IMG/VR virus record: IMGVR_UViG_3300047557_002430
Coordinates: 23,089-87,088 of that record
From: a virus
Reading direction: 5' to 3' (one strand)
Length of the DNA stretch: 64,000 bases
Every line of letters starts with the position of its first letter. Position 1 is the first letter of the stretch. Below are positions 8,486 through 16,639 of this stretch, piece by piece. The position numbers and the translations under genes are program-made. A model generated the notes under the pieces. That model saw only the letters and a program-made list of their open reading frames with translations. It ran no database searches and had not been told where the DNA came from.

Positions 8486-9328
8486 GTGCTGTTCGACTGC
8501 TTTTTATATTTCGACGAGAAGGAACTTCTTGAACTTCGCTACGAGTTGTTAAAAGACGTTGTAGACGGTTTTATTATCACAGACGGAAACAGGACGTTTA
8601 GAGGAGACCCTAAACCTTTTACCTGCGTAGATACAATCAGGGAGTTAGGTTTACCTGAGGATAAGATTCAGGTTCTACACGTTGAACTTCCCACGCCGGA
8701 AGAGTGCTCAATCCCGTGGTCGCGGGAATATGCGCAGAGGGATGCCTTAGGGGTCGGTATGCGTATGTGTCCTCCGGACTCCGTGTTCTTTTTTAGTGAT
8801 GTTGACGAGATTCCCAAACCAGAAAAACTTTTAGAAGCTGTCGAAGTAGCTAAACAGGATCCTTCGCGCTGTGTGCGACTTTCTATGCCTATGTTCTATG
8901 GGCGCGCGGATTTGCGAGTTAAGGATCCGAACGGAGATGACTCGAAAGCCCCAAATAATTGGACATGTGGGACGATCGTTTTATATGAGCATCTCGATCG
9001 CACACCCTCTCAGATTCGTATGAACCCTAACGATATCGTCTTAGGGAACTGTGACGCAGGGTGGCATTTCTCGTGGATGGGAGACTCATCCCGTATGAAA
9101 CGTAAGGTGACTTCGTTTTCTCATTGTTTCGATGACATCCCTAACTCAGTCGCACCGGCTTACAGCGAGGAAATGTTGGATCATTTAGACAACTATAAAG
9201 CACAAGCTGGTAATACAGACCCATTGGGACGTACGGATCATATTTTAGAGCTTTATCCGCATGACCTTTTACCGCCAGAATTGTTTAAACTTGAGAGAGT
9301 ACGCAAGTATTTGCTTCCCGATGGCTAG
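8486..9328 (+). CDS. Glycosyltransferase family 17-like
   Basis: 280 residues with a GTG start. Matches the GT17 (beta-1,4-N-acetylglucosaminyltransferase-like) pattern: MLFDCFLYFDEKELLELRYELL, then ITDGNRTFRGDPKP, the SDVDEIPKPEKL acidic motif near residue 107, and CDAGWHFSWMG near 190-200. Bacterial and phage members are thought to transfer sugars to glycans, with acceptors largely unknown. It lies among virion genes, so virion or host-surface modification is inferred. The last 8 bases overlap the next small gene. Confidence 0.75.
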   Translation: MLFDCFLYFDEKELLELRYELLKDVVDGFIITDGNRTFRGDPKPFTCVDTIRELGLPEDKIQVLHVELPTPEECSIPWSREYAQRDALGVGMRMCPPDSVFFFSDVDEIPKPEKLLEAVEVAKQDPSRCVRLSMPMFYGRADLRVKDPNGDDSKAPNNWTCGTIVLYEHLDRTPSQIRMNPNDIVLGNCDAGWHFSWMGDSSRMKRKVTSFSHCFDDIPNSVAPAYSEEMLDHLDNYKAQAGNTDPLGRTDHILELYPHDLLPPELFKLERVRKYLLPDG

Positions 9329-9525: not shown

Positions 9526-11760
9526 ATGGCAGATACTCTGGGCATCCGACAGCGCTTTAGCGAGATCCTTGAGGCTTCTCGTACGCAGGATCGGAGTAAA
9601 CAATCTGCCACGATGGTGGTTCTTAGTCATTTGCAGCAGATGACGCTGCTTATGATTAAGAAGGGCTTGTTTTTCTACTGTGAGCAGGACACTTACAAAG
9701 CCCGCACAAAATTCTTAGGATCTTTAATTACTCTAAATCGTCTGGACATCCGTTTTCCAGCGATTATTCGTAATTTCCTGATCGATGGGTGCGGGCTTTT
9801 TTATTTTCGTCCTGACCCAAAGCTCAAATATCAGATTTATTTCTTTCCTAAGAGTCAGTACCGCGTATATCACGATATAAACGGCAACATCGATGAAGTT
9901 GTAATCCTTTACAGCTATAAAGTTCGTAACTCTACGCTGGGTTTGCCTGCTGAGACCTACGGGCAGAACAAGCGGTACGTTCGAATTTCTATAACAGAAG
10001 AGCGTATTAACGAGTTCGAGTCCAACAGTGAACTCAGCTTTGAATTAGAACCCGGCACAATTCTTACACCTAAGAACAGCCGCAAAAACGAACTTGGGTT
10101 TATTCCCGCTGTAGAGGTTTTAAACAAACCCAACAGCAGCGGTACTGAGGGAGAAGGAGAGTTTGAACCGTTCATGGAGCAGATAGTGCTTCATGACAAC
10201 ATGATTAAAAATATCGCGAAGAATATTGAGTTCTTTGGCAATCCCACGCTGATTAGTTCTCGGCCTCGTTCCGATCTGGTCGAGGCTTCTGATTCGGATC
10301 GCACATTCCGCCCTACAATCAGCAGCCAAAGCGGTTTTGCTGGTCGCGATACACCTTCGACTCGCGTTTCTGAGCCTTTTGGCTCTTCCGCAATGATTGG
10401 TGGTTTGCGCGTTCCGCGCATTATCGCCAACGTTGAGCCTTCGGATCGTGTGGGTTACATGACCCCCGATCCGGTTAACGGGGACATGAACCGTTATGCC
10501 CTTCTACTGCGTGAAGAAATTCGCACGGCATTAGGGGGTGTTGACGAAATTTCTATTTCTGCTGGCGCTACCGCCACGGAAATTAAGGGTTTGATGGGTC
10601 GTGCACAAGCGACCGCTCTTCGAAAAAATAAGAGTTTCCTTACATACGGCTTCTGCCGTTTGCTGGAGATGATTATTTATCATCAAGAGCAAATTTTCCG
10701 CGAAAGTTTTATTCAAGTTATGGGGATGGAGCCCCCTAAACCTCCTAAAGAACAAACGGAAGAAGCTCAAGAGCGTTACCAAAAACGTCTCGCTAAATAC
10801 GAACGTGATGTTGACGCCGCAATGCAAGTGGCGTTGCAACAAAATAAAGTGCCGAGTGGTGTTTACGGACTTCCCCCGGATGGTGATCGTGAAGTCACCT
10901 ACCGATTCCAGGGCGATGTTTATGAGGACACTGCTTACGACATCAACCAAAAATCTATCGTTGTTCGAAACCTTCAGGAACTAGGTGTGGACAGCGTGGA
11001 AGCGCTTAAATACCTCTTCCCTGATAAAACTGATTCCGAACGTGCAGAAATGTTGAAGGGATTTCCCTTCCGAATGATTCAACAAACGCAGGGCGCTTTT
11101 CAGCAATTTCTATTATTATTGAATCAGATGTTGCAAGCGCCACATCCACTTGCGCCGAATCAACCCCTAGCGGCTGACCCTCGGCTAAACATAACGCCCT
11201 TGCTTTATAGGACGTTTGACCACCTTGCGCAAGAACTGACTTACTCGGGCAGCTATGAGCCAGCAGATCCAAGCTTCGATCCCGAGCCCGGTCTCCCCGG
11301 CGGTAGCGGCCCCGCAGGCAGCGCCTTCGGTAGACCAGGGTTCAACAGCCTACCCGCAGTGGGTAGCAACTACCCAGGCGGCACCTTCGGCAGCTATGCC
11401 CCAAGCGCCGTCGCCGGTAACACCGGTTACGGTCCCTTCTACCAACAACCAGTACAGCCAGTCTCCGTCAACGTCCTCCCCGTCCAACCCGTGGGAAGCG
11501 GCGATGGGCAGCCTGGAGCGGGTGGTTTCGCGTCTCTCCCCGTCCCCCAGCCAGACAGCATCGTATCCGCAGTACCTGACGGCGCCGCAGGATACTCAAC
11601 TTTACAGTCAGAGTTCACAGGCCCAACCGTATCTGTACCAAGCCCCTACGGCTCAGCCGATCTCGTACAGCAACGGATCTACAACCCAGACTTCTTATCC
11701 GATTTCTACGGAGCAACAGCAGCTCCCGCAGCTAAGCCCCGAAACCGCCGCCGTCGTTAA
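9526..11760 (+). CDS. Portal protein with long Pro/Gly-rich tail
   Basis: 744 residues. The core (about residues 1-575) reads as a phage portal: an N-terminal helical clip/wing region, and the ATATEIKGLMGRAQATALRKNKSF helix near 345-370 that is typical of portal stems. It sits at one capsid vertex as the DNA channel and terminase dock. From residue 577 onward the sequence turns into Pro/Gly/Ser-rich low complexity ending in RNRRRR. This part is encoded out of frame with the start of the next gene over 506 bases, so the tail may be overprinted or the true end may lie earlier. Confidence 0.75.
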   Translation: MADTLGIRQRFSEILEASRTQDRSKQSATMVVLSHLQQMTLLMIKKGLFFYCEQDTYKARTKFLGSLITLNRLDIRFPAIIRNFLIDGCGLFYFRPDPKLKYQIYFFPKSQYRVYHDINGNIDEVVILYSYKVRNSTLGLPAETYGQNKRYVRISITEERINEFESNSELSFELEPGTILTPKNSRKNELGFIPAVEVLNKPNSSGTEGEGEFEPFMEQIVLHDNMIKNIAKNIEFFGNPTLISSRPRSDLVEASDSDRTFRPTISSQSGFAGRDTPSTRVSEPFGSSAMIGGLRVPRIIANVEPSDRVGYMTPDPVNGDMNRYALLLREEIRTALGGVDEISISAGATATEIKGLMGRAQATALRKNKSFLTYGFCRLLEMIIYHQEQIFRESFIQVMGMEPPKPPKEQTEEAQERYQKRLAKYERDVDAAMQVALQQNKVPSGVYGLPPDGDREVTYRFQGDVYEDTAYDINQKSIVVRNLQELGVDSVEALKYLFPDKTDSERAEMLKGFPFRMIQQTQGAFQQFLLLLNQMLQAPHPLAPNQPLAADPRLNITPLLYRTFDHLAQELTYSGSYEPADPSFDPEPGLPGGSGPAGSAFGRPGFNSLPAVGSNYPGGTFGSYAPSAVAGNTGYGPFYQQPVQPVSVNVLPVQPVGSGDGQPGAGGFASLPVPQPDSIVSAVPDGAAGYSTLQSEFTGPTVSVPSPYGSADLVQQRIYNPDFLSDFYGATAAPAAKPRNRRRR

Positions 11761-12166
11761 TCACTTCGGTGTTGAAGCTCCTGGCATCCTGAATCAGTAT
11801 GCCACCGTGCTTGAGGATGCTCTGATCCAACAGCACCAAGTTCTGGAGCAAACCGCTGCTCGCGGTATGGTTATGGAACAGATCCTGACGGATCCTGATC
11901 AACTCGCCGATTACACCAATCGGTTCTTTACCGAGGTTTACCCCGTGGACGCCGACGGCGAAACTCAGGGCTATCAGCCTCGTTATGATCAGCTTCCCGC
12001 TGTTCCTGCTTCTGCTTTAGCTGGCGCTCCTAGCGTTGACACTGACACTCAGTGGCAAGGTTTCAGCGAAGCTATGAACAAGAGCCCTGATCAGGCTTGG
12101 CGTTACCTGGCTCAGATGAGCCCCGATGCCTTCCGCGGCAAACTGCTGTTCATGGATTCGAACTGA
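11255..12166 (+). CDS. Scaffold-like capsid assembly protein, overlapping portal
   Basis: 303 residues from the ATG at 11255. Residues 1-165 are Gln/Pro/Ser/Thr-rich and overlap the portal 3' end in the +1 frame. Residues 165-303 are a folded-looking helical domain (PETAAVVNHFGVEAPGILNQ, MVMEQILTDPDQLADYTNRF). Position between portal and capsid genes and the helical, acidic C-terminus fit a scaffolding protein, but this is inference. It is followed at once by a rho-independent terminator. The initiation signal at 11255 is weak, so frameshift expression from the portal is an alternative. Confidence 0.7.
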   Translation: MSQQIQASIPSPVSPAVAAPQAAPSVDQGSTAYPQWVATTQAAPSAAMPQAPSPVTPVTVPSTNNQYSQSPSTSSPSNPWEAAMGSLERVVSRLSPSPSQTASYPQYLTAPQDTQLYSQSSQAQPYLYQAPTAQPISYSNGSTTQTSYPISTEQQQLPQLSPETAAVVNHFGVEAPGILNQYATVLEDALIQQHQVLEQTAARGMVMEQILTDPDQLADYTNRFFTEVYPVDADGETQGYQPRYDQLPAVPASALAGAPSVDTDTQWQGFSEAMNKSPDQAWRYLAQMSPDAFRGKLLFMDSN

Positions 12167-12189: not shown

Positions 12190-12221
12190 AGACCCCGTTA
12201 ACGTGTAGCGGGGTCTTTTTT
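12190..12221 (+). terminator. Rho-independent terminator
   Basis: An 8-bp stem (AGACCCCG paired with CGGGGTCT) with an 11-base loop is followed by a run of T. It lies 23 bases after the scaffold-like gene and closes the portal unit. Confidence 0.85.
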
Positions 12222-12224
12222 ATT

Positions 12225-12890
12225 ATGTGTGCTCGCCACGTCATCCAAGGTTCTTTTAGTTCATTAGATGACGACCCAGCAACGCAATCTTTTACAGATT
12301 ACGAATTAGTCGCTGAGGCGATCAAGTTTGCAGCAAGTGAACCTATACTCCCTGACTTTGAGTTTGCGAATGTATTTCCTGGCGAACATTATCGAATATT
12401 ATCTGGTCTTTTAAAGGTATTAAAACCTGCGTTTTTAATCGATATCGGAACCTACCGTGGGTGCTCAGCACGAGTCATGTTGGACTCCACCGGTAGTTAT
12501 TCAACGGTGTACACTTATGACCTTTATGATTACTTATCGTTTGATTGGACTGTTTTAAAAGAACAAGATTTTGCTTCTGGCAGATTACAGCAACATTTAG
12601 TTAATTTAATTAACCCTGATATTTTTGAGCAGCATAAAGTGTTGTTAAATAGAGCAGATTTTATTATGTTAGACGGACCTAAAGACGATCACTTTGAAAA
12701 AACTTTATTACATATGATGCAGACAGTTGAGTTTAGTGATAAACCGCGCTGGTTGTTCATTGACGATATTCGGTTCACAAACATGCAAGACCTGTGGCGC
12801 TCAATCAAATCTCCCAAACTAGACCTAAGCAGCTTCGGGCATTTTTCTGGGACGGGAATAGTTAACATACAAAAAGGTCTTCTGATTTAG
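12225..12890 (+). CDS. Class I SAM-dependent methyltransferase-like
   Basis: 221 residues. The Rossmann motif I is visible as FLIDIGTYRGCSARVML near residues 70-85. A post-I acidic YTYDLYDY lies near 98-105, FIMLDGPKDD near 145 and WLFIDDIR near 177. The pattern resembles the Methyltransferase_24 group that often acts on sugars or small molecules; substrate unknown. Its first bases abut the upstream terminator's T tract, so it probably has its own promoter or relies on readthrough. Confidence 0.6.
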   Translation: MCARHVIQGSFSSLDDDPATQSFTDYELVAEAIKFAASEPILPDFEFANVFPGEHYRILSGLLKVLKPAFLIDIGTYRGCSARVMLDSTGSYSTVYTYDLYDYLSFDWTVLKEQDFASGRLQQHLVNLINPDIFEQHKVLLNRADFIMLDGPKDDHFEKTLLHMMQTVEFSDKPRWLFIDDIRFTNMQDLWRSIKSPKLDLSSFGHFSGTGIVNIQKGLLI

Positions 12891-14115: not shown

Positions 14116-15231
14116 GTGTTTGTCGATAACGATTTCCCGAAGCTGCTTGGTGCTGAGTTATATCGACCGCACCCTGCGTATGTAGTCGAAATGGCTGCAG
14201 AACCAGTGGTGGTCCATGACTTCTCCAAACAGCCCGGCCAGACAGTTCAGTTAGATCGTTACCGCTTCTGGGGCAACCCTGGTTCTAAGGAATCGCGGGA
14301 ACGTACAGCCGAACAGACAATCGGCACCGCTAACAGCAGGAATATTGTTAAGGACAAGGTGCTCGTGACTCTTCGCGAGTACACCGGTCCCGCTGACCCG
14401 ACTGATCCTACTCAGCCCAGCACCTTCAAAATCGCTCGCGAGACTCTGATCACCGCGCAGCGCTTACTGCTGGATACTGGCAACCTGACTGCGTTCCACC
14501 AGTCTATCGGTTCGTTAACTCTGCTTGACGACTACCGGCGGTGGCGTGATCGGGTGTTCATCAACGAACTCCTGAAAGCCGTTTCTAAGGGTAAGGCTTC
14601 CGACAGCCAGGGTGGCTACTACTACCCCGGCGACCTTGCCGTCGGCGGTCTGACCTACTCTAACGCAGAGCAGGCCAAGTTCGACGTTAAGGACGACCTG
14701 CTGCGCGTGGTGAAGAGCCTCCGTAAGCGGAACGTCCCCACCTACCAGGACGGGTTCTATCGCTGCGTCTGCGATCCTACCTTCCTGATGCACCTGCGTC
14801 AGAACAGCGACTTCCGCGAGGTTGCACGCTATCCTGGCAACGGCCAAATCAACCCCCTCATGTCGGCGATGCAGCCCAACGCTGCGCTGTACATGGGTCA
14901 AGGCTTCGGCCAAGCCACCTTCGTGGCTGGCGAGCCCATCATGCCGACTGGCTTTGTGTTTGAAGGTGTGCGGTTCTTCGAATCCACCAACATGCCTTCG
15001 CAGACTGCCACGGCGACTATCGGTGGCACCGCAGGTACATACGATACCGCCATCGGTATGTTCTTCGGTCCCCAAAGCGTTGGTGTCGGTATCGGCGGCA
15101 ACAACGCCCAGGTGCTGCTGAACAACAACGACGACTTCAGCCGTTTCATCATGATGATTTGGAGCCTGTACGCAGGTTTCGAACTTCTGAACGCTGACTT
15201 CGCCACCATCGCTTACTCCTTTAGCGTTTGA
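14116..15231 (+). CDS. Major capsid protein
   Basis: 371 residues, GTG start. The features fit the N4-gp56-like branch of HK97-fold capsid proteins. These include a PGQTVQLDRYRFWG segment near residue 46, a helical spine with RETLITAQRLLLDTGN, the YQDGFYRCVCDPTFLMHLRQNSDF motif near 205-228, and the VFEGVRFFESTNMP segment near 280-294. Codon use is markedly C-ending and GC-richer than neighbours, as expected for a very highly expressed gene. A strong Shine-Dalgarno links it to the next gene. Confidence 0.85.
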   Translation: MFVDNDFPKLLGAELYRPHPAYVVEMAAEPVVVHDFSKQPGQTVQLDRYRFWGNPGSKESRERTAEQTIGTANSRNIVKDKVLVTLREYTGPADPTDPTQPSTFKIARETLITAQRLLLDTGNLTAFHQSIGSLTLLDDYRRWRDRVFINELLKAVSKGKASDSQGGYYYPGDLAVGGLTYSNAEQAKFDVKDDLLRVVKSLRKRNVPTYQDGFYRCVCDPTFLMHLRQNSDFREVARYPGNGQINPLMSAMQPNAALYMGQGFGQATFVAGEPIMPTGFVFEGVRFFESTNMPSQTATATIGGTAGTYDTAIGMFFGPQSVGVGIGGNNAQVLLNNNDDFSRFIMMIWSLYAGFELLNADFATIAYSFSV

Positions 15232-16204: not shown

Positions 16205-16639
16205 ATGACTGCTGTGACCACGAAGGAATACACCTACACTCCGAATGGTGTAAAAATTGAAGTAATTAGTGAGCACGATGAAGGTGAATATAAGATGGTG
16301 AAGTCCTTAACTACCGGGAAGGTTTTCTTTGCCCATCGAAATCAAATTGCTGAAGTCGAGAAAGAAGCTGAGCCCGAATCTAAAACTGCAAAACAGCGCC
16401 GTGGGCGACAAATTGTAAAACCGGAAGTTCAGGCTTTTAACCGCGTAAACATCAATAGCGCTACTCCCCAGTTACTGACTCAGGTTCTTAAAGGTGTTGG
16501 CCTTAAAACGGCTACTGAAATTAAAGAGCTTCAGCAGTCTATGCCTGGCGAGCGCTTTACTAAGTTGGAGCAACTGCGGGCGATCACCCGCGTGGATTGG
16601 GATTCTGTTCTTGAGGGTGACCATGTGTATGTGGAATGA
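16205..16639 (+). CDS. Helix-hairpin-helix protein
   Basis: 144 residues. The N-terminal third is a small beta domain, and a basic linker (KQRRGRQ) follows. The C-terminal 55 residues read as a ComEA-like helix-hairpin-helix: RVNINSATPQLLTQVLKGVGLKTATEI then KLEQLRAITRVDW. HhH motifs bind DNA backbones non-specifically, here perhaps at the head-tail interface or packaged DNA (inference from position). The last 56 bases are overlapped by the antisense homing endonuclease. Confidence 0.7.
   Translation: MTAVTTKEYTYTPNGVKIEVISEHDEGEYKMVKSLTTGKVFFAHRNQIAEVEKEAEPESKTAKQRRGRQIVKPEVQAFNRVNINSATPQLLTQVLKGVGLKTATEIKELQQSMPGERFTKLEQLRAITRVDWDSVLEGDHVYVE

Follow-up and report, generated by a model that had tools for sequence, protein, structure and literature searches.

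In a 64,000-nucleotide stretch of viral DNA, here called the window, which lies in an 87,088-base virus record, two frames of one strand stay open over the same bases, raising the question of whether both are translated and, if so, into two proteins or one. The first frame belongs to a portal gene of 744 aa (9526–11760), and the second, in the +1 frame relative to it, to a scaffold-like gene of 303 aa (11255–12166); these genes, the sites and motifs within them and the major capsid gene all lie on the + strand. The two open reading frames share positions 11255–11760, 506 nt including the portal stop codon, placing the N-terminal ~168 codons of the scaffold-like gene within the portal gene. The GC content of the shared stretch is 0.62, compared with 0.47 for the whole window. 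The first-pass annotation had proposed that the portal tail is overprinted, that ribosomes shift from the portal into the scaffold frame, or that a sequencing indel conceals the true end of the portal. Taken by itself, one sequence can be only suggestive, because the +1 frame remained open in 0.36% of trials when synonymous codons of the portal tail were permuted, and in 13% when its codons were drawn from core usage.

The upstream gene encodes a phage portal protein, as established by both profile and fold similarity. Its product matches PHROG 20475 (head and packaging; 1.3e-162) and the portal families PHROG 64 (3.2e-6) and PHROG 104, with the portal families matching residues 62–243. The AF2 model is of low quality (pLDDT 43), yet the best 32 ranks of its comparison with the PDB were all taken by phage portal or portal-tail structures (best E 1.8e-6). 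The matched PDB portal chains comprise 392–564 residues, indicating that a complete portal fits within the body of the protein (residues ~1–575) and that the remaining 169 residues are an addition. This tail is of low complexity, rich in proline, glycine and serine, with a basic end, and is probably disordered according to the prediction. Immediately before the portal lies a GTG-start gene (8486–9328) matching glycosyltransferase family 17 (Pfam, 3.4e-16), and a similar gene precedes the portal in most relatives (71 of 85).

The downstream protein shows no significant match in PHROGs, Pfam, the PDB or BFVD, and its AF2 model (pLDDT 44, low confidence) is too poor for its fold to be judged. Its N-terminal half is rich in glutamine, proline and serine and probably disordered, with one short helix, NPWEAAMGSLERVV, predicted in the low-confidence model, and its C-terminal half is predicted to be helical. 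The alignments for the AF2 models were built from loci retrieved in our scans, with the S-EIVl record (see below) left out. Our best guess is that this protein is a scaffold, based on gene order and on an architecture of weakly predicted helices rather than on homology. The order portal–scaffold–major capsid protein (MCP) holds in both clades described below; in the window, the MCP gene has a GTG start, spans 14116–15231 and matches PHROG 1357 (major head protein, 1.5e-23). Directly 3′ of the scaffold-like gene, a hairpin resembling a terminator (AGACCCCG...CGGGGTCT, then a row of T's) was noticed by eye at 12190–12221. A methyltransferase-like gene (12225–12890; weak Pfam match, 0.0014) stands between the scaffold and MCP genes, an arrangement found in only 15 of 85 loci of the window's clade, and a small helix-hairpin-helix protein (16205–16639; Pfam HHH_3, 2.4e-6) encoded after the MCP is conserved in both clades.

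Relatives were gathered from IMG/VR with two queries, the portal body and the non-overlapped part of the scaffold, yielding a first set of 88 distinct loci carrying both genes, mostly from IMG/VR and with the window and S-EIVl counted in. The second gene occupies the same +1 frame relative to the portal in 87 of the 88. In 86 of those 87 the ATG lies at the identical site, a stop closes the frame 15 nt upstream, and the genes overlap by 497–512 nt; the remaining one is Synechococcus phage S-EIVl (S-EIV1; GenBank KJ410740) itself, with an overlap of 554 nt. Of 50,697 phage records, this phage alone gave a convincing match, and no more distant portal devoid of a tail was found there. Searching with the S-EIVl portal, and also with an alignment of seven portal sequences, brought out a sister clade, the S-EIVl clade, in which all 58 distinct loci, including a metagenome-assembled bacterial contig (L265), carry an overlap of 545–638 nt. 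Portal bodies of the two clades are about 47% identical. The constancy of frame, ATG and overlap length across these loci settles the overlap as real. The sequence comparison shows that it spans about 500–640 bases in a group of cyanobacterial viruses that is itself widespread, and that it arose before the window's clade and the S-EIVl clade diverged.

Individual contigs such as L088 do carry indels, which, apart from the oddity of the layout, is all that speaks for a sequencing or assembly error hiding the true portal end. The two exceptions, L088 and L272, appear as single indels in individual contigs, and in a motif scan the inner frame was shut before the portal stop in just 1 of 237 scoreable stretches among the matches listed. 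The identical layout recurs across many samples, in about 145 distinct loci, one of them in the genome of a cultured isolate. An error as the source of the overlap is thus refuted, its probability being vanishingly small, and the out-of-frame overlap of portal tail and scaffold-like gene described in the first-pass annotation proves to be correct and biological, conserved in both clades.

S-EIVl resembles the window in having a homologous portal, a +1-frame overlap, a scaffold-like protein and an MCP, to which the window MCP corresponds at 69%. It differs in that its scaffold start lies four codons further upstream and is preceded by a strong Shine-Dalgarno sequence. The overlap is unannotated in its GenBank record, where only 133 of the 325 aa of the conserved scaffold-like ORF are called (L002:9288-10265; KJ410740 59287-60264). 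The S-EIVl major capsid gene also looks misannotated in GenBank (L002:10785-12011; KJ410740 60784-62010): an antisense CDS covers the 5′ half of its GTG-start ORF (383 aa), and only the 3′ part is called.

Selection was measured with an OLGenie-like count, each frame being scored while the other was held constant; the count was applied to pairs of related sequences with a codon bootstrap rather than as a full phylogenetic model. Within the overlap of the window's clade, dNN/dSN was 0.32 for the portal frame (95% limits 0.22–0.46) and dNN/dNS was 0.29 for the scaffold frame (0.21–0.39); the corresponding values in the S-EIVl clade were 0.54 (0.39–0.74) and 0.25 (0.20–0.32). As controls, a sham portal frame placed in the non-overlapped end of the scaffold gave 1.38 and a sham scaffold frame placed in the portal body gave 0.68–0.89, leaving the ratios of both real frames well outside the control values. 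Codon periodicity and synonymous constraint across homologues, the comparison suggested in the first-pass annotation, likewise indicate that both frames are constrained. At positions 1, 2 and 3 of the portal codons, the fraction of sequence pairs that differed was 0.16, 0.08 and 0.53 in the core, compared with 0.22, 0.12 and 0.22 in the overlap, where the drop at position 3 is expected if that position doubles as position 2 of another codon. At four-fold sites of the portal, 0.04–0.31 of pairs differed in the overlap and about 0.62 along the body. These sequence comparisons indicate that purifying selection acts on both frames across the overlap, and the proposed overprinting is thereby borne out, with controls.

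Conserved blocks of one protein tend to face variable stretches of the other (portal residues 616–647 and 709–729; scaffold residues 78–100). The portal-tail block YPGGTFGSYAPSAVAGNTGYGPFYQQPVQPVS (11371–11466) faces a variable scaffold stretch, and the scaffold-frame motif NPWEAAMGSLERVVSRLSPSPSQ (11486–11554), containing a helix predicted with low confidence at residues 79–93, faces a variable portal stretch. A general anticorrelation of constraint between the two frames was not significant in the smoothed data (rho −0.11; 0.43 of circular shifts gave values as low).

Could one of the two frames be a passenger? That only the scaffold frame functions, the portal tail being read-through noise, would suit the low complexity and predicted disorder of the tail and the portal-frame ratio of the S-EIVl clade (0.54), where selection is weaker on the portal frame than on the scaffold frame. 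Yet in neither clade do the 95% limits of the portal dNN/dSN reach 1, both estimates lying below it, against 1.38 for the control, and the tail has a length of 166–171 aa throughout the window's clade and conserved motifs of its own. Among these is the C-terminal motif GSADLVQQRIYNPDFLSDFYG with the basic end KPRNRRRR (11650–11760), and the GSAD motif of this C-terminal region is common to the window's clade and the S-EIVl clade. We therefore consider a functionless tail very improbable; a portal that ends near residue 575, with no conservation beyond that point, is not what the homologues show. The converse, that only the portal frame functions in the overlap and the downstream protein starts after it, agrees with the 133-aa form annotated in KJ410740. 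It is extremely improbable in view of the scaffold-frame ratios of 0.29 and 0.25 in the two clades, the conservation across clades of N-terminal scaffold motifs such as NPWE, and the invariant ATG, together with the invariant Shine-Dalgarno sequence of the S-EIVl clade, at the long scaffold start.

The internal ATG (11255–11257) lies within a Ser-Tyr-Glu of the portal and, in the window's clade, is built from the codons for Tyr577 and Glu578. Tyr577 is encoded by TAT in 86 of 86 sequences of this clade, whereas each of the 15 other invariant tyrosine columns in the portal body contains both TAT and TAC. The scaffold frame is closed 15 nt upstream of the ATG by a TGA codon (11237–11239), and this position remains a stop, TGA or TAA, across the window's clade because the portal leucine codon there is always CTG, CTA or TTA. 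These sites were also surveyed with an IMG/VR pattern scan that allowed every synonymous spelling of the portal peptide, except that the serines at the start site were limited to AGY. Among the matches listed, TAT and with it the internal ATG were present in 105 of 105 stretches of the window's clade, and both AAGGAG and TAT in 162 of 162 stretches of the S-EIVl clade. In the latter, the Shine-Dalgarno sequence AAGGAG is formed by portal Lys-Glu codons and the TAT that follows makes the ATG; the element ACAAAAGGAGATGAG(T/C)TATG also holds a scaffold-frame stop, 3 nt before the ATG. The inner gene thus has its own initiation signal, comprising a fixed ATG in both clades and, in the S-EIVl clade only, a fixed Shine-Dalgarno sequence. 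No clear Shine-Dalgarno sequence was found at the ATG at 11255 in the window's clade (best duplex −2.8 kcal/mol; background mean −3.0), and many other genes of the window's phage likewise have none. Around this ATG the unpaired fraction (0.49) is only a little above the average (0.41).

These signals bear directly on the alternative that a programmed frameshift sends a fraction of the portal ribosomes into the +1 frame, producing a portal–scaffold fusion, perhaps beside free scaffold. The +1 frame is open across the entire overlap, a shift anywhere downstream of 11240 would yield such a fusion, and the conserved stretch ahead of the ATG could contain a frameshift signal; by eye, however, no slippery site is evident in that stretch. 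The fixed ATG, the fixed Shine-Dalgarno sequence of the sister clade and the stop upstream fit independent initiation, and a frameshift needs none of them. A stop closes the scaffold frame shortly ahead of the ATG in both clades, at a distance of 15 nt in the window's clade and of 3 nt in the S-EIVl clade, and the ATG is fixed at the level of synonymous codons; the frameshift fusion raised in the first-pass annotation is accordingly not supported, and we regard it as quite improbable. Judged from sequence conservation and selection, the 506 nt are very probably truly dual-coding and expressed as two separate proteins by independent internal initiation.

Synonymous variation is already lowered ahead of the overlap, over the last ~50–75 codons of the portal body in both clades (11101–11254 in the window; L187:7447-7750). 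Within 11101–11254, where no second frame is open, four-fold divergence was 0.41 and 0.31, compared with about 0.62 further upstream. The strongest synonymous constraint falls on codons 495–510 in the S-EIVl clade (synonymous difference 0.09–0.20 vs 0.48). A third overlapping gene at codons 495–575 was rejected, since in neither clade does any other frame stay open consistently. Nor do we claim a conserved RNA structure in this stretch: RNAalifold found double changes in 4 of 78 pairs, and its covariation term was weak (−2.4 of −55.4 kcal/mol). A promoter or a translation control element is a possible source of the constraint.

Under independent initiation, ribosomes starting at 9526 would make a portal with a normal body (~1–575) followed by the 169-aa, probably disordered Pro/Gly-rich tail. 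Other ribosomes would load at the internal ATG (11255) and translate the +1 frame, yielding a separate scaffold-like protein of 303 aa for head assembly. The N-terminal half of this protein, probably disordered and rich in glutamine, proline and serine, would be read from the same bases as the portal tail. Both proteins would come from one transcript. Since both of the protein ends that share bases are probably flexible, the constraint on each would be relaxed. Codon usage does not differ between the two frames (−1.330 vs −1.338 per codon) and gives no hint as to which is older. The compact length of solved portals favors an origin of the tail in which the portal grew into a scaffold gene that already existed. 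In a broader proposal, the overlap would do more than save sequence: the tail of the portal would bind the N-terminus of the scaffold, both being made at one place on a single mRNA, so that dual coding would couple the supply of portal and scaffold and seed head nucleation at the portal, and the constrained stretch ahead of the overlap would act as an RNA element setting the protein ratio. As a whole, we consider this rather unlikely.

The overlap is old, is common among metagenomic viral contigs from many samples, and is absent from the annotation of the only cultured representative; its recognition corrects the head-gene annotation of the S-EIV1 lineage. It offers a natural test bed both for the evolution of two disordered protein ends on the same bases and for internal initiation within a translated gene in phages of cyanobacteria. 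To our knowledge, large tailed phages rarely have essential virion-assembly genes that overlap out of frame over long stretches, and we know of no such overlap between the portal and scaffold genes of phage P22. We found no report of a portal–scaffold overlap in the literature searched; the description of S-EIV1 (ISME J 2015) lay outside its coverage, and we do not claim priority.

Among known systems, P22 lends itself to comparison at the protein level, though we found no sequence relation between its portal or scaffold and the proteins of the window. Its portal gp1 (residues to 725) is also long, with a C-terminus (601–725) that is unstructured in the procapsid, and its scaffolding protein, of 303 residues, docks on the portal (PMC12005531). 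The C-terminal part of the P22 portal forms a helical barrel, in contrast to the Pro/Gly-rich tail described here. At the level of gene layout, out-of-frame overlapped spanin genes are well known and often missed by gene callers (PMC6139136). Like the portal and scaffold-like genes, the two-component spanin genes Rz/Rz1 and their relatives, embedded or overlapped out of frame, encode two functionally linked phage proteins in different frames of one stretch; the spanin genes, however, serve lysis rather than head assembly, and the overlapped examples share 70, 116 and 155 bp, compared with 500–640 here (PMC6139136). Disorder is enriched in proteins encoded by overlapping genes, and in terminal overlaps of the phiX174 type the 3′ end of one gene likewise runs over the 5′ end of the following gene, which is read in a different frame (PMC8227390). 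Whereas phiX174 has a small ssDNA genome, the present overlap lies in an 87-kb dsDNA phage record with portal and HK97-type head genes.
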